From the NCBI RefSeq assembly GCF_036250735.1, contig NZ_CP109430.1:9982001-10046000 (forward strand): a DNA stretch of 64,000 bases, written 5' to 3'. The stretch comes from Streptosporangium sp. NBC_01495 (GTDB taxonomy: Bacteria > Actinomycetota > Actinomycetes > Streptosporangiales > Streptosporangiaceae). Under the pieces are notes generated by a model. It worked only from the letters and a program-made list of their open reading frames with translations. It was not told where the DNA came from and did no database searches. The position numbers and the translations under genes were made by a program. This document shows, piece by piece, positions 4,800 through 10,408 of the stretch (positions within the stretch are counted from its first letter, which is position 1; each line of letters starts with the position of its first letter).

Positions 4800-5726
4800 G
4801 TGACCCAGACCCCCCTTAACCCCGGCGACTCGCCGCTGGTACGAGAGGCACTCAGCTCAGTGGTTTCACGTGAAACATCGGCCCAGAAGACCGCCGCCGC
4901 TCCCGGAGGTTCCGCCGGAGTCCGGGATGGAGACTGGCCTCGCCCTGCCAAAACCCGGATTTTCACCGTCGCCAACCAGAAGGGCGGCGTCGGCAAGACC
5001 ACCACGTCGGTCAACCTGGCGGCGGCGCTGTCCATGCACGGCCAGCGGGTGCTCGTGGTCGACCTCGACCCCCAGGGCAACGCATCGACGGCCCTGGCCG
5101 TCGAGCACCGCGGTGACGTACCGGACATGTACAAGGTGCTCGTGGAGGACCTGCCGCTCGCGGAGGCCGTGAAGGAGGTCCCGGACATGCCGGGCCTCTA
5201 CTGCGCCCCCGCCACGATCGACCTGGCCGGCGCCGAGATCGAGCTGGTCTCCATGGTCGCCCGCGAGGCCCGCCTGCAGCGCGCGCTGACCGCCTACGAC
5301 GCCGTCGAGTTCGACTACATCCTCATCGACTGCCCTCCCTCGCTCGGCCTGCTGACGGTCAACGCGCTGATGGCCGCGAACGAGCTGCTGATCCCCATCC
5401 AGTGCGAGTACTACGCGCTGGAAGGTCTTGGCCAGCTGCTGAGGAACGTGGATCTGGTCCGCGCGCACCTGAACCCCACGCTTGACCTCTCCACCATCCT
5501 CATGACGATGTACGACGGGCGCACCCGGCTCGCCTCTCAGGTCGCCGACGAGGTCCGTTCCCACTTCGGCGCGACGGTGTTGAGCACGCTGATCCCCCGA
5601 AGCGTGCGCGTCTCCGAGGCACCGAGTTACGGTCAGTCGGTCATGACGTACGACCCGGGCTCCAGCGGCGCGATGGCCTACATGGACGCCGCCCGCGAGA
5701 TCGCCTATCGCGGTGCGGCCGTATGA
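4800..5726 (+). CDS. parA: Chromosome partitioning ATPase ParA (Soj)
   Basis: ParA is the Walker-type ATPase that drives segregation of ParB-parS complexes and, in sporulating actinomycetes, organises septation. From GTG 4800, preceded by GAAAGGAAG, the protein is 308 aa. A frame open from 4647 has no binding site and is not favoured. Deviant Walker A KGGVGKTT is at 61-68, followed by VVDLDPQGNAS and DYILIDCPPSLGLLT. The first 50 residues are a variable extension. A parS site (4863-4876) lies within the coding sequence and encodes VVSRET. parB begins 71 bp downstream. Confidence 0.95.
   Translation: MTQTPLNPGDSPLVREALSSVVSRETSAQKTAAAPGGSAGVRDGDWPRPAKTRIFTVANQKGGVGKTTTSVNLAAALSMHGQRVLVVDLDPQGNASTALAVEHRGDVPDMYKVLVEDLPLAEAVKEVPDMPGLYCAPATIDLAGAEIELVSMVAREARLQRALTAYDAVEFDYILIDCPPSLGLLTVNALMAANELLIPIQCEYYALEGLGQLLRNVDLVRAHLNPTLDLSTILMTMYDGRTRLASQVADEVRSHFGATVLSTLIPRSVRVSEAPSYGQSVMTYDPGSSGAMAYMDAAREIAYRGAAV
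4863..4876. promoter_or_regulatory. parS site 1, inside parA
   Basis: Exact palindrome GTTTCACGTGAAAC, the actinobacterial parS core bound by ParB. It lies in codons 22-26 of parA. Confidence 0.93.
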
Positions 5727-5797
5727 GCACCGGGAAGCCCGTGGCCGCGGCCACGGGTATGTCAGTGAGTGCGACACCTTGAGTCTCGGGAGGGGCA

Positions 5798-6781
5798 GTG
5801 AGTAAGCAGCCGAGAGGGCTGGGCAGGGGGCTGGGGGCGCTCATCCCGACAGGTCCGGCCGTCGTCACGGAAACGCCCGTGTCGATGACCGTGACCATGG
5901 CCGCCCCGGAGCCGGTGGTGGTGCCGGAGCAGCCCGGCCCCGCGCCGGTCGCGGGCGCCTACTTCCTTGAGATCCCCGTCGACGACATCGCGCCCAACCC
6001 GCGCCAGCCGCGCGACATCTTCGACGAGGAGGCCCTGAAGGAACTGGCCACCTCGATCGGTGAGGTCGGCCTGCTCCAGCCGATTGTGGTGCGCGCCACG
6101 GGCGAGGGACGCTATGAGCTGATCATGGGCGAGCGCCGCTGGCGCGCTTCCAAGGCCGCCGGGCTCTCCGAGATCCCCGCGATCGTGCGGGAGACCCAGG
6201 AGGACAAGCTCCTGCTCGACGCGCTCATCGAGAACCTCCAGCGCGAGCAGCTCAACGCCCTGGAGGAGGCGGCGGCCTACCAGCAACTGCTTGACGATTT
6301 CGGCGCGACCCACGAGCAGCTCGCCACCCGCATCGGTCGTTCCCGATCGCACGTGACCAACACGGTGCGCCTGCTGAAGTTGCCGCCCGGTGTGCAGCGC
6401 AAGGTCGCGGCCGGAACGATCAGCGCGGGCCATGCCCGAGCCCTGCTCCGCCTGGACGACCCCGCCGCCCAGGAACACCTCGCCAACCGGATCTCGGCCG
6501 AGCTGCTGTCGGTCCGCGCGGTCGAGGAGATCGTCGCTGTGGGCGACGCCAGGGCCGCTCCGGACGCGGCCCCCGCTCCGCGTGCTCCCCGGGCGAAGCC
6601 CGACGAGGAGCCCGCCCTTCGGCATCTGGCCGACCGCCTCTCCGACCGCTTCGAGACCCGGGTGAAGGTCGACTTCGGCCGTCGCAAGGGGCGCATCGTG
6701 GTGGAGTTCGCGACCATCGACGATCTGGAGCGCATCATCGGCACGATGGCTCCGGGGTCGCTGCAGGCGATGGAAGGATGA
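5798..6781 (+). CDS. parB: Chromosome partitioning protein ParB
   Basis: ParB is the CTP-dependent clamp that loads at parS and spreads to form the centromere complex. The 327-residue protein begins MSKQPRGLGRGLGALIP at GTG 5798 after GGGAGGGGC. The basic N-terminus, which contacts ParA, is typical. The ParB/Srx CTP-binding motif GERRWRA is at 111-117. The helix-turn-helix that reads parS spans about 171-195 (HEQLATRIGRSRSHVTNTVR). The C-terminal dimerisation region (VKVDFGRRKGRIVVEF) follows a Pro/Ala linker. It is cotranscribed with parA and followed by a 66-bp palindrome centred on parS. Confidence 0.95.
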   Translation: MSKQPRGLGRGLGALIPTGPAVVTETPVSMTVTMAAPEPVVVPEQPGPAPVAGAYFLEIPVDDIAPNPRQPRDIFDEEALKELATSIGEVGLLQPIVVRATGEGRYELIMGERRWRASKAAGLSEIPAIVRETQEDKLLLDALIENLQREQLNALEEAAAYQQLLDDFGATHEQLATRIGRSRSHVTNTVRLLKLPPGVQRKVAAGTISAGHARALLRLDDPAAQEHLANRISAELLSVRAVEEIVAVGDARAAPDAAPAPRAPRAKPDEEPALRHLADRLSDRFETRVKVDFGRRKGRIVVEFATIDDLERIIGTMAPGSLQAMEG

Positions 6782-6914
6782 TCTCACCGGCTCCGGAGGC
6801 CCGTGAACGCGGGCCCGTGGCGCACCCCGCCGAGCCGGTGAATCTCCCCCGAGGCCCCTTCCGGGGTGGCTGCCTTCCGGGATGACCCCCGGCGGCCGGC
6901 CTTCCCGGACGGTT

Positions 6915-6980
6915 CCCCGGATACGAAGAGCGGCCTCCCTGTTTCACGTGAAACAGGGAGGCCGCTCTTCGTATCCGGGG
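6915..6980. repeat. Perfect 66-bp palindrome centred on a parS site
   Basis: The 33-nt arm 6915-6947 is the exact reverse complement of 6948-6980 with no spacer. The central 14 bp (6941-6954) are the parS core GTTTCACGTGAAAC. As RNA it would form a long hairpin behind parB and so could terminate transcription. As DNA it is ParB's target. No T-run follows on either side. Confidence 0.95.
6941..6954. promoter_or_regulatory. parS site 2, behind parB
   Basis: Exact GTTTCACGTGAAAC at the centre of the 66-bp palindrome. Confidence 0.93.
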
Positions 6981-7396
6981 CCAGGTAGACCGTTCTCGCT
7001 CTGGTAGCACGACTCTCAGCTTTGGCGGCACCGTCGCTTCCCGTTCGCCCCCCTGTGCTCGCCTTACGGCGTTGCGATGATCGAAGGGCCCCGTACCTTC
7101 CGGCGCGCCTCGTGGGTACGCGTGCACGGTCTCAGGGCCGTATGTCCGGTGTATGACGCGACTGCAGTGAAGGGAGGGGAGAGACGCCGGGAGAGGGGAG
7201 GCGCCGTGCCCCGTGCTCCAGCGGCGAGGGGCTTTTTGCGAGGCGCCTCGCGACCCACACCGTGTGGCGGCTGGTCAAGCGAGAACGCCGAGCCTCCGGG
7301 CGGGACCGTCGAGCGAGCGTCAACCGCGCCGATCTCAAGCCCCACCGCCCTCGACCCCAGCGTGGCGCAAGCCTCCAGCTGTGCAAGCCTTAGGAG

Positions 7397-8257
7397 ATGG
7401 ACCGGCATGCACTTGGATCCTTCCTCAGGACGAAGCGAGAACAGCGCGACGCGACTGCCCTCGGGTATGGCACCGAGGGTCGCCGCACCCCCGGACTACG
7501 GCGCTCCGAGGTCGCCGAATTGGCGCACATCTCGGTCGAGCACTATACGAACCTCGAGCAGGCGCGCGGAGCGCGTCCCTCTCGTGACGTGCTCGTCTCG
7601 GTGTCGCGTGCGTTGGAGCTCACGCGTGACGAGGAGACACACCTGTTCGAGCTTGGCGGGCACGCGCGTCCCCGGCCCGCGCATCCCGCCATGGAGGTGG
7701 CCGACAGCATTCTCCAGCTCATTCACAGCCTGCCATCCACCGCAGCCCTCGTTCTCAGCGCCCGGTACGACGTGCTCGCCTGGAACCGGCTCGCGGAAGT
7801 GCTCCTGGAGGACTTCTCCCAGTGTGGATGGGAGCGTAGAAACCTTATTCGGCGCCATTTCCTCCTGGACTCCCTGTCGGGTCAGGGACACTTCAACATG
7901 GACGGGTACTTCGACTTCTCACGCTTCTCCGTCGGCCGGCTGCGAAGCACATTGGCCCGGTACCCCGACGACCACGACACAGTCCGCCTTGTCGAAGAGC
8001 TCCGCGCCCGCAGTGAAGAGTTCGATGCGATGTGGCGCGGTCAAGACGTCAACGTTGATACGCACACGTCAAAGCTCATGAAGCACGAGAAGCTGGGCAA
8101 TCTTCTCCTGGTGTGCGACGTCTTGCAGGTGCCGGACCGTGACCAGCATGTCGTTCTGCTCTCGGCGCCCGACGGTTCGGATACCGCCGAGATTCTGCGA
8201 AGCGCTACGGACGGATCGCTCCCGGCGACCGGGCCGTTCGTCGCTGATCTGGCTTGA
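7397..8257 (+). CDS. XRE-family regulator with MmyB-like ligand-binding domain
   Basis: A cytoplasmic DNA-binding regulator of unknown signal. Residues 1-85 form an XRE helix-turn-helix (LGSFLRTKREQRD, then RRSEVAELAHISVEHYTNLE). The rest (about 105-285) matches the MmyB-type ligand-binding domain common in actinomycetes (VLAWNRLAEVLLEDF, FDFSRFSVGRLRSTLARYP, KLGNLLLVCDVLQVPDRDQH), which has a PAS-like fold. ATG 7397 follows AGGAG with almost no spacing, so the start is not certain. Such regulators usually control an adjacent enzyme gene; the SnoaL-like gene 376 bp downstream is the obvious candidate. This pair separates parB from the parS cluster. Confidence 0.85.
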   Translation: MDRHALGSFLRTKREQRDATALGYGTEGRRTPGLRRSEVAELAHISVEHYTNLEQARGARPSRDVLVSVSRALELTRDEETHLFELGGHARPRPAHPAMEVADSILQLIHSLPSTAALVLSARYDVLAWNRLAEVLLEDFSQCGWERRNLIRRHFLLDSLSGQGHFNMDGYFDFSRFSVGRLRSTLARYPDDHDTVRLVEELRARSEEFDAMWRGQDVNVDTHTSKLMKHEKLGNLLLVCDVLQVPDRDQHVVLLSAPDGSDTAEILRSATDGSLPATGPFVADLA

Positions 8258-8633
8258 CCCCTCACCCGGTGGCGGGTGGAGCCCGCACGGGTACCGATGC
8301 GTCTCCTCGCGCGGCGACGAGACGCGCTGAGCACGCGTCGCGCTGAGCACGCGTCGCGCTGAGCACGCGTCGCGAAACCAGGGTCTCGTGCCAACAGTGC
8401 GCGGTCGCGATCAGCTCTTGGCCTGTTCCCGTCGAAGGGGGTACTCCTTGTGCGTGCCAGAGAGAGGGGGTCTTCGGGCTGAATGGTTGACGAAAGCACC
8501 CGGTGCCGACTTCGCCCGTCCACGTGCGTGCAGTCCATGAGCGCTGGAGCCTCGGCACGTTCGAGCGGTTCCTCGGAATGACAGCGCGGGCACCGACACA
8601 CGGCTTTCTCGGCACAACAGAAGGAGACAGCCC
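8258..8633. other. Gap with 16-bp tandem repeats before SnoaL-like gene
   Basis: 376 bp without a convincing gene. It contains three exact tandem 16-bp units (8325-8372, described separately). The promoter of the downstream gene should lie in the second half. Confidence 0.4.
8325..8372. repeat. Three tandem copies of a 16-bp repeat
   Basis: The unit CGCTGAGCACGCGTCG occurs at 8325-8340, 8341-8356 and 8357-8372 without variation. ACGCGT within it is palindromic. It may be a repeated operator or a slippage product. Confidence 0.9.
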
Positions 8634-9092
8634 ATGACCACCCCCAACGCCCTGGTGATCGCCCAGACATACGTTCGAGCAGTGGAGAGCAAAAACCGTG
8701 ACGGCGTCGCGGCGACACTGGCCGATACCGTCCGGCATATCTTCCCGATCTCCTACGGTCCCGTGGAACACCCGCAGGCGGTGTTCGAGGGCAAGGACGA
8801 GGTGCTCGCCTACATCGACTCGCTCTTCAACAAGTTCTCGTCGATGCGCTGGCCGGCGCCTGACTGGACGGTCTCGGCGGACGGCAGCCGGGCCTTCCTG
8901 GAAGGCAAGGGCGATGGCGTCGTAGCGCACTCCCGGTCGCCCTACCGGAACACCTACATGATTCGCTTCGATCTCGAAAACGGTCTGATCGTGCGGGTCA
9001 CCGAGTACGCGAACTCGGAGTACTACGTCGCTCAGAACATCCCGCCGGTGGAGGTTGAGATCCGCGCCGCCGAGCGGGCGGCCGCCCTGTAA
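8634..9092 (+). CDS. SnoaL-like / NTF2-like domain protein
   Basis: A 152-residue single-domain protein with the alpha+beta cone pattern of SnoaL/ketosteroid-isomerase-like proteins. It opens with a helix (ALVIAQTYVRAVESKNRDGV) and LADTVRHIFPIS. The strands GSRAFLEGKGDG and YMIRFDLENGLIVRVTEYANSEYY, with a C-terminal helix, follow. The family includes cyclases, hydroxylases and isomerases as well as non-enzymatic binders, so the substrate is unknown. ATG 8634 follows AGAAGGAGA at good spacing. The upstream XRE/MmyB-like regulator may control it. Confidence 0.75.
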   Translation: MTTPNALVIAQTYVRAVESKNRDGVAATLADTVRHIFPISYGPVEHPQAVFEGKDEVLAYIDSLFNKFSSMRWPAPDWTVSADGSRAFLEGKGDGVVAHSRSPYRNTYMIRFDLENGLIVRVTEYANSEYYVAQNIPPVEVEIRAAERAAAL

Positions 9093-9130
9093 CGGTCAAT
9101 CCGCGAGCGCCGGGAAGCACTGGCGGCATC

Positions 9131-9144
9131 GTTTCACGTGAAAC
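9131..9144. promoter_or_regulatory. parS site 3
   Basis: Exact GTTTCACGTGAAAC, first of three in a 210-bp intergenic cluster downstream of the SnoaL-like gene. Confidence 0.93.
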
Positions 9145-9288
9145 ATCGGGCGGCAGGACATGCGGTCGGCCCTCGCGAGGCGTGAACTCTCGACGAGGAG
9201 GACGGGCGCAGCGGGAGCGGCGAGATCGCCCGCGGAACGCCTGGGATCTTGTGCGCGGGAGAGGGGCGGCCCGAGGATGGCGGCCGGT

Positions 9289-9302
9289 GTTTCACGTGAA
9301 AC
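9289..9302. promoter_or_regulatory. parS site 4
   Basis: Exact GTTTCACGTGAAAC; with its flanks it gives the full 16-mer TGTTTCACGTGAAACA at 9288-9303. Confidence 0.93.
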
Positions 9303-9326
9303 AGTCACCGTTCCTGAGGGAAGGCC

Positions 9327-9340
9327 GTTTCACGTGAAAC
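9327..9340. promoter_or_regulatory. parS site 5
   Basis: Exact GTTTCACGTGAAAC, 38 bp from site 4 and ending 9 bp before the stop codon of the convergent threonine aldolase gene. Confidence 0.93.
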
Positions 9341-9349
9341 AGATGTCAC

Positions 9350-10408
9350 TCAGGAGCCGACGGCCTCCTGGACGGCGAGACGGATGTCGGCGACGAAAGT
9401 GTCGACATGCTCGGGAGTGGTGTCGAAGGCGGTCACCCAGCGGACCACGTTCTCGGCCGCGTCCCAGACATGGAAGAGATAGCGCTGCTGCAGTTCCGCG
9501 ATGGCCTTCTCTGGGAGGGCGGGGAAGACGGCGTTGGACTGCACGGGATAGCGCAGGGAGACGCCCGGAAGATCGGCGATCCCCTCGGCCAGGCGGTGGG
9601 CCATGACGTTGGCGTGGGCGGCGTTCTCGCGCCAGAGCTCCTCGGTGAGGAGGGCGGTCAGCTGGGCGGAGACGAAGCGCATCTTGGAGGCGAGCTGCAT
9701 CCCCTGCTTGCGTAGGAACGACGCCGGGGCGTCCAGCTCCGGGCGGAGAACCACGAGCGCCTCGGCACCCATGGCGCCGTTCTTGGTACCCCCGAAGCTG
9801 AGCAGGTCCACGCCCGCGTCCGTGGTGAGGGAGCGGAGCGAGCAGCCGAGCTCGGCCGCCGCGTTGGCCAGCCGGGCGCCGTCCATGTGCAGGAAGAGGT
9901 TGTGCGCGTGCGCGAACTCCGCGAGCTCGGCGATCTCGTCGGCGGTGTAGCAGGTGCCGCACTCGGTCACCTGGGAGATGGAGACGACCCTGGGCTGGGA
10001 GTGGTGCTCATCCCCCAGCACGGACAGTTGGCCACGGATGTCGTCCACGGAGATCTTGCCGTCCCCCGTGGGAAGGGTGACCAGCTTGGCGCCCAGCACG
10101 CGTTCGGCGGCACCGCACTCGTTGGTGTTGATGTGGGCGGTGGCCGGGCAGAGCACCGCGTCGTACGCCCGGAGTACGAGCCCGAGGCCCACGACGTTGG
10201 CGCCGGTGCCGTTGAACATCGGGTAGGCGGTCGCGTGGGCGCCGAACTCGGCGCGGAAGGTGTCCTTCATCGCGGTGGTCCAGGCATCCCCGCCGTAGGC
10301 GAGGGCGTCTCCGGCGTTCGCTTCGAGGATGGCGGTGAGAACCGCAGGGTGCACGCCCGCGTGGTTGTCGCTGGCGAAGCTCTTGGGGAATGGGGTGGAG
10401 GTCAGCAC
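9350..10408 (-). CDS. Low-specificity L-threonine aldolase
   Basis: A pyridoxal-phosphate enzyme that splits L-threonine or L-allo-threonine into glycine and acetaldehyde. The 352-residue product shows the fold-type I pattern: FASDNHAGVHP at 11-21, FNGTGANVVGL around 65-75, the HMDGARL motif at 174-180 and the PLP lysine in SFGGTKNGAMG (Lys209). Start is GTG 10408. Its 3' end abuts the parS cluster, so ParB spreading could cover it. Family members also act on other beta-hydroxy amino acids, so substrate choice is not fixed by sequence. Confidence 0.88.
   Translation of the reverse strand: MLTSTPFPKSFASDNHAGVHPAVLTAILEANAGDALAYGGDAWTTAMKDTFRAEFGAHATAYPMFNGTGANVVGLGLVLRAYDAVLCPATAHINTNECGAAERVLGAKLVTLPTGDGKISVDDIRGQLSVLGDEHHSQPRVVSISQVTECGTCYTADEIAELAEFAHAHNLFLHMDGARLANAAAELGCSLRSLTTDAGVDLLSFGGTKNGAMGAEALVVLRPELDAPASFLRKQGMQLASKMRFVSAQLTALLTEELWRENAAHANVMAHRLAEGIADLPGVSLRYPVQSNAVFPALPEKAIAELQQRYLFHVWDAAENVVRWVTAFDTTPEHVDTFVADIRLAVQEAVGS

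Follow-up and report, generated by a model that had tools for sequence, protein, structure and literature searches.

A putative intrinsic terminator built around parS behind parB in Streptosporangium and its relatives

The parAB locus and its palindrome

The window, i.e., the whole 64,000-nucleotide stretch of DNA analysed here, comes from the genome of Streptosporangium sp. NBC_01495, a soil actinobacterium. In its par region, the order is rsmG, parA, parB, a long palindrome, a MmyB-like regulator gene, a SnoaL-like gene, three parS sites and a convergent aldolase gene (Table 1). Exact copies of the 14-bp parS were found at five positions of the genome, all of them in the window, within 4.5 kb and clustered beside parAB. 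Like the chromosomal parS of ParABS systems, the site studied here has the exact 16-bp consensus and lies near parAB. The parS in parA had flanks (cagtgGTTTCACGTGAAACa) that were nearly the same across the genus and in several other genera, so that one stretch encodes protein and presumably also binds ParB.

Table 1. Features of the par region, in coordinates of the window.
Feature	Coordinates	Strand	Basis
parA	4800..5726	+	Pfam AAA_31/CbiA
parS in the 5' coding part of parA, arms 7 nt	4863..4876 (14-mer)	.	parS match
parB, last gene of the parAB pair	5798..6781	+	ORF; Pfam ParB_N, HTH_ParB, ParB_C; TIGR00180 above cut-off
Perfect 66-bp palindrome	6915..6980	.	repeat search, reverse-complement script
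Left outer arm, putative lineage-specific perfection of the palindrome	6915..6928	+	perfect counterpart absent from G008 and G003
Stem-loop core, 19-nt arms, homologous to parS-centred hairpins of other Streptosporangium	6929..6966	+	alignment, covariation, fold
parS, 16-bp consensus, at the palindrome centre and predicted RNA hairpin apex	6940..6955	.	consensus match; fold with 4-nt loop
Right outer arm, where relatives carry a T-rich tail; pairs with 6915-6928	6967..6980	+	alignment with G008 and G003
MmyB-like HTH regulator	7397..8257	+	ORF, domain match
SnoaL-like gene	8634..9092	+	ORF, domain match
Three more parS (9130-9145, 9288-9303, 9326-9341), palindromic arms <9 nt, beside the convergent aldolase gene	9130..9341	.	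parS match
PLP-dependent aldolase, convergent	9350..10408	-	ORF, domain match

The closest named relative was S. amethystogenes, with a ParB 92% identical to that of the window. In this species, the aldolase gene, convergent to parB, comes immediately after the par region, and the two plus-strand genes that split the par intergenic region of the window (7397-9092) are absent from that place. The MmyB-like and SnoaL-like genes thus look like an insertion between parB and the parS cluster with the aldolase gene. Two smaller repeats were also noticed in the region: a perfect 20-bp palindrome with arms of 10 nt at 5738-5757, just past the parA stop codon and between parA and parB, and a 16-nt unit (GCGCTGAGCACGCGTC) present in three tandem copies at 8324-8371.

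The palindrome behind parB was identical to its own reverse complement over 66 bp, with 33-nt arms (6915-6947 and 6948-6980) that were 100% complementary and had no spacer; the bases bounding it, T and C, do not pair. Its centre, 166 nt 3' of the parB stop codon, coincided with the 16-bp parS consensus TGTTTCACGTGAAACA without a mismatch. The initial annotation, which had described spacerless 33-nt arms around a complete parS behind parB, was therefore borne out. In an 11.1-Mb genome with the base composition of the window, about 1e-11 palindromes of this kind would be expected, and a chance origin was ruled out. Zero-spacer palindromes with arms of at least 9 nt occurred only twice more in the window, both times with 10-nt arms, and the other four exact parS sites of the genome had arms shorter than 9 nt. 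When folded as RNA with a 4-nt loop, the core (6929-6966) reached -35.0 kcal/mol and the full palindrome -68.3 kcal/mol, and the fold of the region 6900-7000 had a z-score of -13.0. An Rfam search of the window gave no family at the gathering threshold, and a known structured RNA was rejected on this ground as the identity of the palindrome. The element was not listed by a simple promoter/terminator scan either, which counts against a role as terminator.

Conservation and strand-specific signals in relatives

A perfect parS-centred palindrome with arms of 16-33 nt was found 28-166 nt 3' of the parB stop codon in 15 of the 16 Streptosporangium genomes (that of the window and 15 others). In the other genus members, the palindromic unit measured 32-46 bp and the perfect arms 16-23 nt. 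The exception (locus L016 of genome G007) carried a hairpin whose pairing is imperfect (G.U pairs, one mismatch) and also a separate hairpin-plus-T site. Arms of at least 13 nt were present in 21 of the 23 members of a group picked by its order in the drawn tree rather than by a clade test, which comprises Streptosporangium, its Planomonospora/Planobispora relatives and G029.

All 23 members of this group, long-armed or not, were placed in a gap-free alignment and analysed for covariation. Paired cells made up 96.6% of the total (77.8% after shuffling), and sliding the alignment by 1-3 columns lowered the paired share to 42-50%. Changes on both sides were found in 12 of 18 pairs, the number of double-changed cells was 79 against 21.4 expected, and the covariation score was 0.542 as compared with 0.166 in shuffled data; none of the 500 shuffles reached any of these values, the share of paired cells included. 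When the right arms were re-dealt among the species, the Watson-Crick pairs at positions 8-16 averaged 132, with a maximum of 155 in 1000 draws, instead of the observed 201 of 207. The co-varying arms and the effect of re-dealing them indicate that pairing, rather than arm sequence, is maintained, the arms outside parS having diverged. The initial annotation had proposed to look for such covariation in related genomes.

Most of the parS sites surveyed were short-armed: among 307 parS-centred sites whose arms measured at least 7 nt, 253 had arms of 7-8 nt. In the 80 named loci, the parS listed on the 5' side of parB, as a rule inside parA or close to it, had arms of exactly 7 nt. Unlike most parS of this survey, the long-arm sites described here have arms of 13-33 nt and, in most relatives, an added tail. 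The 824,539 bases of the 80 named loci contained 25 zero-spacer perfect palindromes with arms of at least 13 nt centred on parS and only one other. The latter, in Thermocatellispora tengchongensis (L088), was located 41 nt after parB and had 19-nt arms around the centre GTTCCACGTGGAAC, i.e., a parS changed symmetrically on both sides. Repeated parS arrangements were also seen after parB: four parS at an exact 187-bp spacing with identical flanks, a tandem duplication of a parS-bearing unit (L024 of G026), and, about 1 kb after the gene, four parS spaced by 29 bp, of which the first three lie in units that are almost identical (L023 of G023).

The sequence following the stem differed between the strands. 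The number of T residues in the first 8 nt was 3.2 on the parB strand and 1.1 on the other for 36 long palindromes (27 higher, 5 lower; Wilcoxon 1.9e-5), 3.8 and 0.5 for 16 palindromes of the genus (one of them the second palindrome of L018), and 1.3 and 1.1 for 47 short-arm parS, values which are meaningful only between strands and against short-arm sites, as the loci were chosen partly for their long palindromes. Of the 15 palindromes located after parB in the genus, 13 had at least three T in 8 nt. Counting against a terminator, the window copy had one T in the 8 nt past the full stem, and four other loci (L055, L238, L244 and L250) had 0-2. In the accessible text of two studies of Streptomyces, mapped terminators are described as very stable hairpins followed directly by 10 nt with 3-4 U (PMC12207403), and at least three U in 8 nt is counted as U-rich in a Term-seq analysis (PMC8269248). 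By these figures, the tails of the relatives would be ordinary for such bacteria.

Departures from Watson-Crick pairing at stem positions 8-17, read on the parB strand in the 23 group members and L066, comprised seven G.U, no A.C and four others, with three species supplying the G.U evidence. As G.U pairs in RNA from the parB strand correspond to A.C in the other strand, these departures point to parB-strand RNA. In Sinosporangium siamense (L119), a hairpin with 17-nt arms and the tail TGCTTGTTTG was kept, while the parS centre was mutated to CACGCG, a change that falls within the RNA loop. The one-strand tail, the G.U departures and the stem of L119 without its parS centre point to RNA from the parB strand, not to symmetric DNA. 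Another decayed centre (CACAAG) was found at L289 (G219), 208 nt after parB, in a hairpin with an intact stem of 15-nt arms and no T-rich tail.

In an alignment of the window with G008 and G003, the relatives nearest to it, all three had the inner arms in common, and the extra 14 nt per arm were not shared by the two relatives. The right outer arm of the window (CTTCGTATCCGGGG) aligned with the tails of G008 and G003 (TCTCGTGTTCCCGA and TCTCGTACTCCCGG, respectively), and the left flank of G003 already held CCCCGGAT. Judged by this alignment, the palindrome has been extended by 14 nt per arm over the ancestral tail, specifically in this lineage. In this one case, an existing quasi-palindrome was probably perfected in the window lineage by a later event, perhaps a template switch, which would have extended the arms across the old tail to their present 33 nt. 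Because the old tail now lies inside the stem, the window copy has no free T-rich tail and was missed by the simple terminator scan; termination by this copy may be less efficient or take place at the inner stem. The view that the survival of an unstable palindrome, a target of SbcCD, reflects selection found no support, given the 32-46 bp unit of the genus and the lack of the extra 14 nt in the two nearest relatives. Moreover, 66 bp is short for an argument from palindrome instability.

Distribution downstream of parB and beyond the family

The family survey comprised 207 loci, of which 173 were unique and at least two (L028 and L033) came from other families. Among the unique loci, a parS lay within 200 nt after parB in 116 and none within 500 nt in 37. 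A parS-type palindrome with arms of at least 13 nt within 500 nt after parB was found in 38 of the 173, that of the window being the longest. Such long cases were located within 60 nt of the parB stop codon in 28 of 38 instances, as compared with 47 of 169 short-arm sites.

The 260 nt after parB were scanned for terminator-like sites, defined by a contiguous stem of at least 7 and at least four T in 8 nt, a combination found in 2.5% of shuffles. In loci of the long-arm class, the match fell on parS in 15 of 37 and elsewhere in two of 37; a share of 15 in 37 under this strict test counts against the terminator reading. No match fell on parS in the classes with arms of 9-12 and 7-8 nt, where matches elsewhere were found in 3 of 21 and 12 of 65 loci, respectively, and loci in none of these classes had a match in 7 of 50. 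Of the unique loci that lack a long palindrome (136 in all), 22 had a conventional hairpin-plus-T site no further than 260 nt from the stop codon, against the 2.5% of shuffles. On the ParB tree (FastTree, unrooted), the long state requires at least 18 changes, a minimum that cannot separate gain from loss. Away from the parB end, the family loci contained 19 parS palindromes whose arms measured at least 11 nt; by our count, six of them had at least three T in 8 nt on either side, so some such palindromes do not look like terminators.

ParB was reported in 156 of 158 genomes of the class, and the survey of parB ends covered 100 regions, 12 from the family of the window (f1) and 88 from other families. 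All 12 f1 regions and none of the 88 others had an exact parS no more than 200 nt from the parB stop codon, and no long parS palindrome was found within 500 nt in these 88 regions. A covariance model was built from the hairpins of the 23-member group; it scored the window site at 66.6 bits and a plain parS at 22.5 bits. At E <=0.001, it matched 50 of 246 genomes of the class: 16 of the family, including that of the window, 23 of f20/g41 and 11 of other families, so that 34 of the 50 lay outside the family. Because the model that selected these loci was one of long palindromes, no frequencies can be derived from them, and some of the scored matches were not read as palindromes. The f20/g41 group looks Streptomyces-like, and the five genomes of it that were searched had 7-30 exact parS each.

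Among the matches listed, 32 loci were read (3 own and 29 others), with arms of at least 16 nt in 27 and of at most 8 nt in five. Genes in the loci beyond the family and away from parB were called from our own ORFs with a GC3 rule. The neighbours of the 27 long-arm loci among the matches listed were convergent in 12 cases, both on the plus strand in seven and both on the minus strand in five, with one neighbour missing in three; none of the loci was between divergent genes or inside a called gene. Two of the five short-arm loci among these matches were inside called genes. For the 12 co-directional loci among the matches listed, two of which were parB ends of the family, the number of T in 8 nt was 3.4 on the gene strand and 1.25 on the other (Wilcoxon 0.004).

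A further sample consisted of 364 kb around parS with 73 parS sites from six genomes chosen for their strong hits. Here, 1 of 17 sites with arms of at least 13 nt, 3 of 12 with arms of 9-12 nt and 20 of 44 with arms of at most 8 nt were inside called genes (Fisher 0.003 for the extremes). The long-arm cases examined thus sit almost only at the 3' ends of genes. In this Streptomyces-like sample, the T count in 8 nt at long arms was 2.2 on the strands of ending genes (24) and 1.75 on other strands (4), and at short arms 0.8 (23) and 1.25 (16), respectively. The tail signal was weak in this sample, which counts against the terminator reading.

A proposed terminator with parS at its apex

The initial annotation had suggested that termination of parAB transcription and a ParB site are combined in one element. 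The core of this idea is supported at the sequence level by the co-varying arms, the one-strand T tail of the relatives and the placement at the 3' end, to which the palindrome itself, the identity of parS, its conservation and the G.U-type departures can be added. In the favoured reading, to which a probability of roughly 0.8 was given, transcription of parAB ends at the element by intrinsic (Rho-independent) termination, the hairpin of this terminator being built around a parS apex. As DNA, the central 14-16 bp would be the loading site of ParB, whereas as RNA, the same bases would supply the ACGU loop and the upper part of the stem. The added GC-rich arms, together with the downstream T-rich tail on the parB strand, would make the terminator: the parB transcript would fold at the hairpin, and the polymerase would be released in or near the tail. 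Both the stop of RNA polymerase at the element and the binding of ParB to its parS are inferred from sequence.

The perfect symmetry of the DNA could also be explained by an extended ParB site, whose long arms would be read as DNA by ParB or a partner for better loading or spreading with no role of RNA. In line with this, none of the 41 sites with strict arms of at least 13 nt extends further when G.U or mismatches are allowed to bridge. However, the other four exact parS of the genome lack such arms, the arm sequence is not conserved, the T-rich tail of the relatives is on one strand only, the departures on the parB strand are G.U and not A.C, and the stem of L119 outlived its parS centre; with the diverged arms, the one-strand tail, the G.U departures and L119 against it, this very improbable explanation was rejected. 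A cruciform or recombination element, or the remnant of a mobile element, would account for a long perfect palindrome with so strong a single-strand fold. The conserved place, the co-varying arms, the strand-specific tail of the relatives and the lack of an Rfam family at threshold in the window speak against it, and it was discarded, on account of place, covariation and tail, as extremely unlikely. Extrusion of a cruciform, which the initial annotation had also considered, is required by none of the observations. By reasoning, it would split the parS duplex between the two arms, each with one half, which would remove the duplex site of ParB and make extrusion compete with ParB binding. As to the outermost 14 nt of each arm, the chance that they are an assembly artefact is small: the perfect arms of other genus members do stop at 16-23 nt, but the alignment of the right outer arm with the tails of relatives and the CCCCGGAT in the left flank of G003 offer a natural source for both sides, and the genome is assembled in 2 contigs.

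A different matter is whether the two functions of the proposed terminator affect each other. ParB on the parS apex might alter termination of its own operon, as a roadblock or a read-through switch, and transcripts ending at parS might shield the partition complex and the zone of ParB/SMC loading from RNA polymerase; this coupling is put forward tentatively and is rather doubtful. According to the alternative, which was given slightly better than even odds and which, being compatible with a terminator, rivals only the coupling, a terminator and an intergenic parS merely share the small space after parB, the hairpin having grown from a ready-made short palindrome, with neither function affecting the other. 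Many parS near parB are indeed short-armed, with a separate terminator-like site in the 12 of 65 such genomes noted above, and the at least 18 changes of the long state on the ParB tree are as expected for easy gain and loss. The retention of long arms in 21 of 23 members of one group despite divergence of the arms speaks for coupling, but selection for a terminator alone would give the same. Sharing of place without coupling fits the sequence data equally well.

The proposed terminator resembles the intrinsic terminators of GC-rich actinobacteria in that its stem is long, stable and rich in GC, its loop is short, it follows a coding sequence and, in the relatives with a T-rich tail, its U content is modest (3-4 in 10 nt), as far as these are described in the accessible text of PMC12207403 and PMC8269248. 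It differs from them in that the loop and upper stem are a complete parS and the DNA is perfectly palindromic without a spacer. In the available text on neisserial DNA uptake sequences (DUS), a short DNA recognition sequence likewise doubles as part of a Rho-independent terminator (PMC2397512); there, two inverted DUS copies make the repeat, whereas here one self-palindromic parS makes the apex. Sharing of bases or place between parS and a transcription signal is also described, in the text available, for parS near or overlapping promoters, at the Mycobacterium gidB promoter (PMC2346475) and at P. aeruginosa parS3/4 (PMC7022226), which are upstream, promoter-side cases, unlike the transcript end considered here. 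Dual-use DNA signals in terminators and parS at promoters are thus already known from these sources, and no description of parS inside a terminator was found in the open-access literature searched.

Two unrelated functions seem to reside in one short sequence, and the same fusion seems to occur in many related bacteria. If the terminator reading is true, a bacterial centromere sequence would have been repeatedly reused as the core of a terminator, linking segregation and gene expression in one element of 32-66 bp. If the coupling is also true, selection for it would be reflected in the repeated evolution of the element, at parB as well as at other genes. The parS-centred hairpins of actinobacteria may, as a caution, be terminators, and the element would be a simple and testable system in which to study how the same DNA is used by ParB clamps and RNA polymerase.
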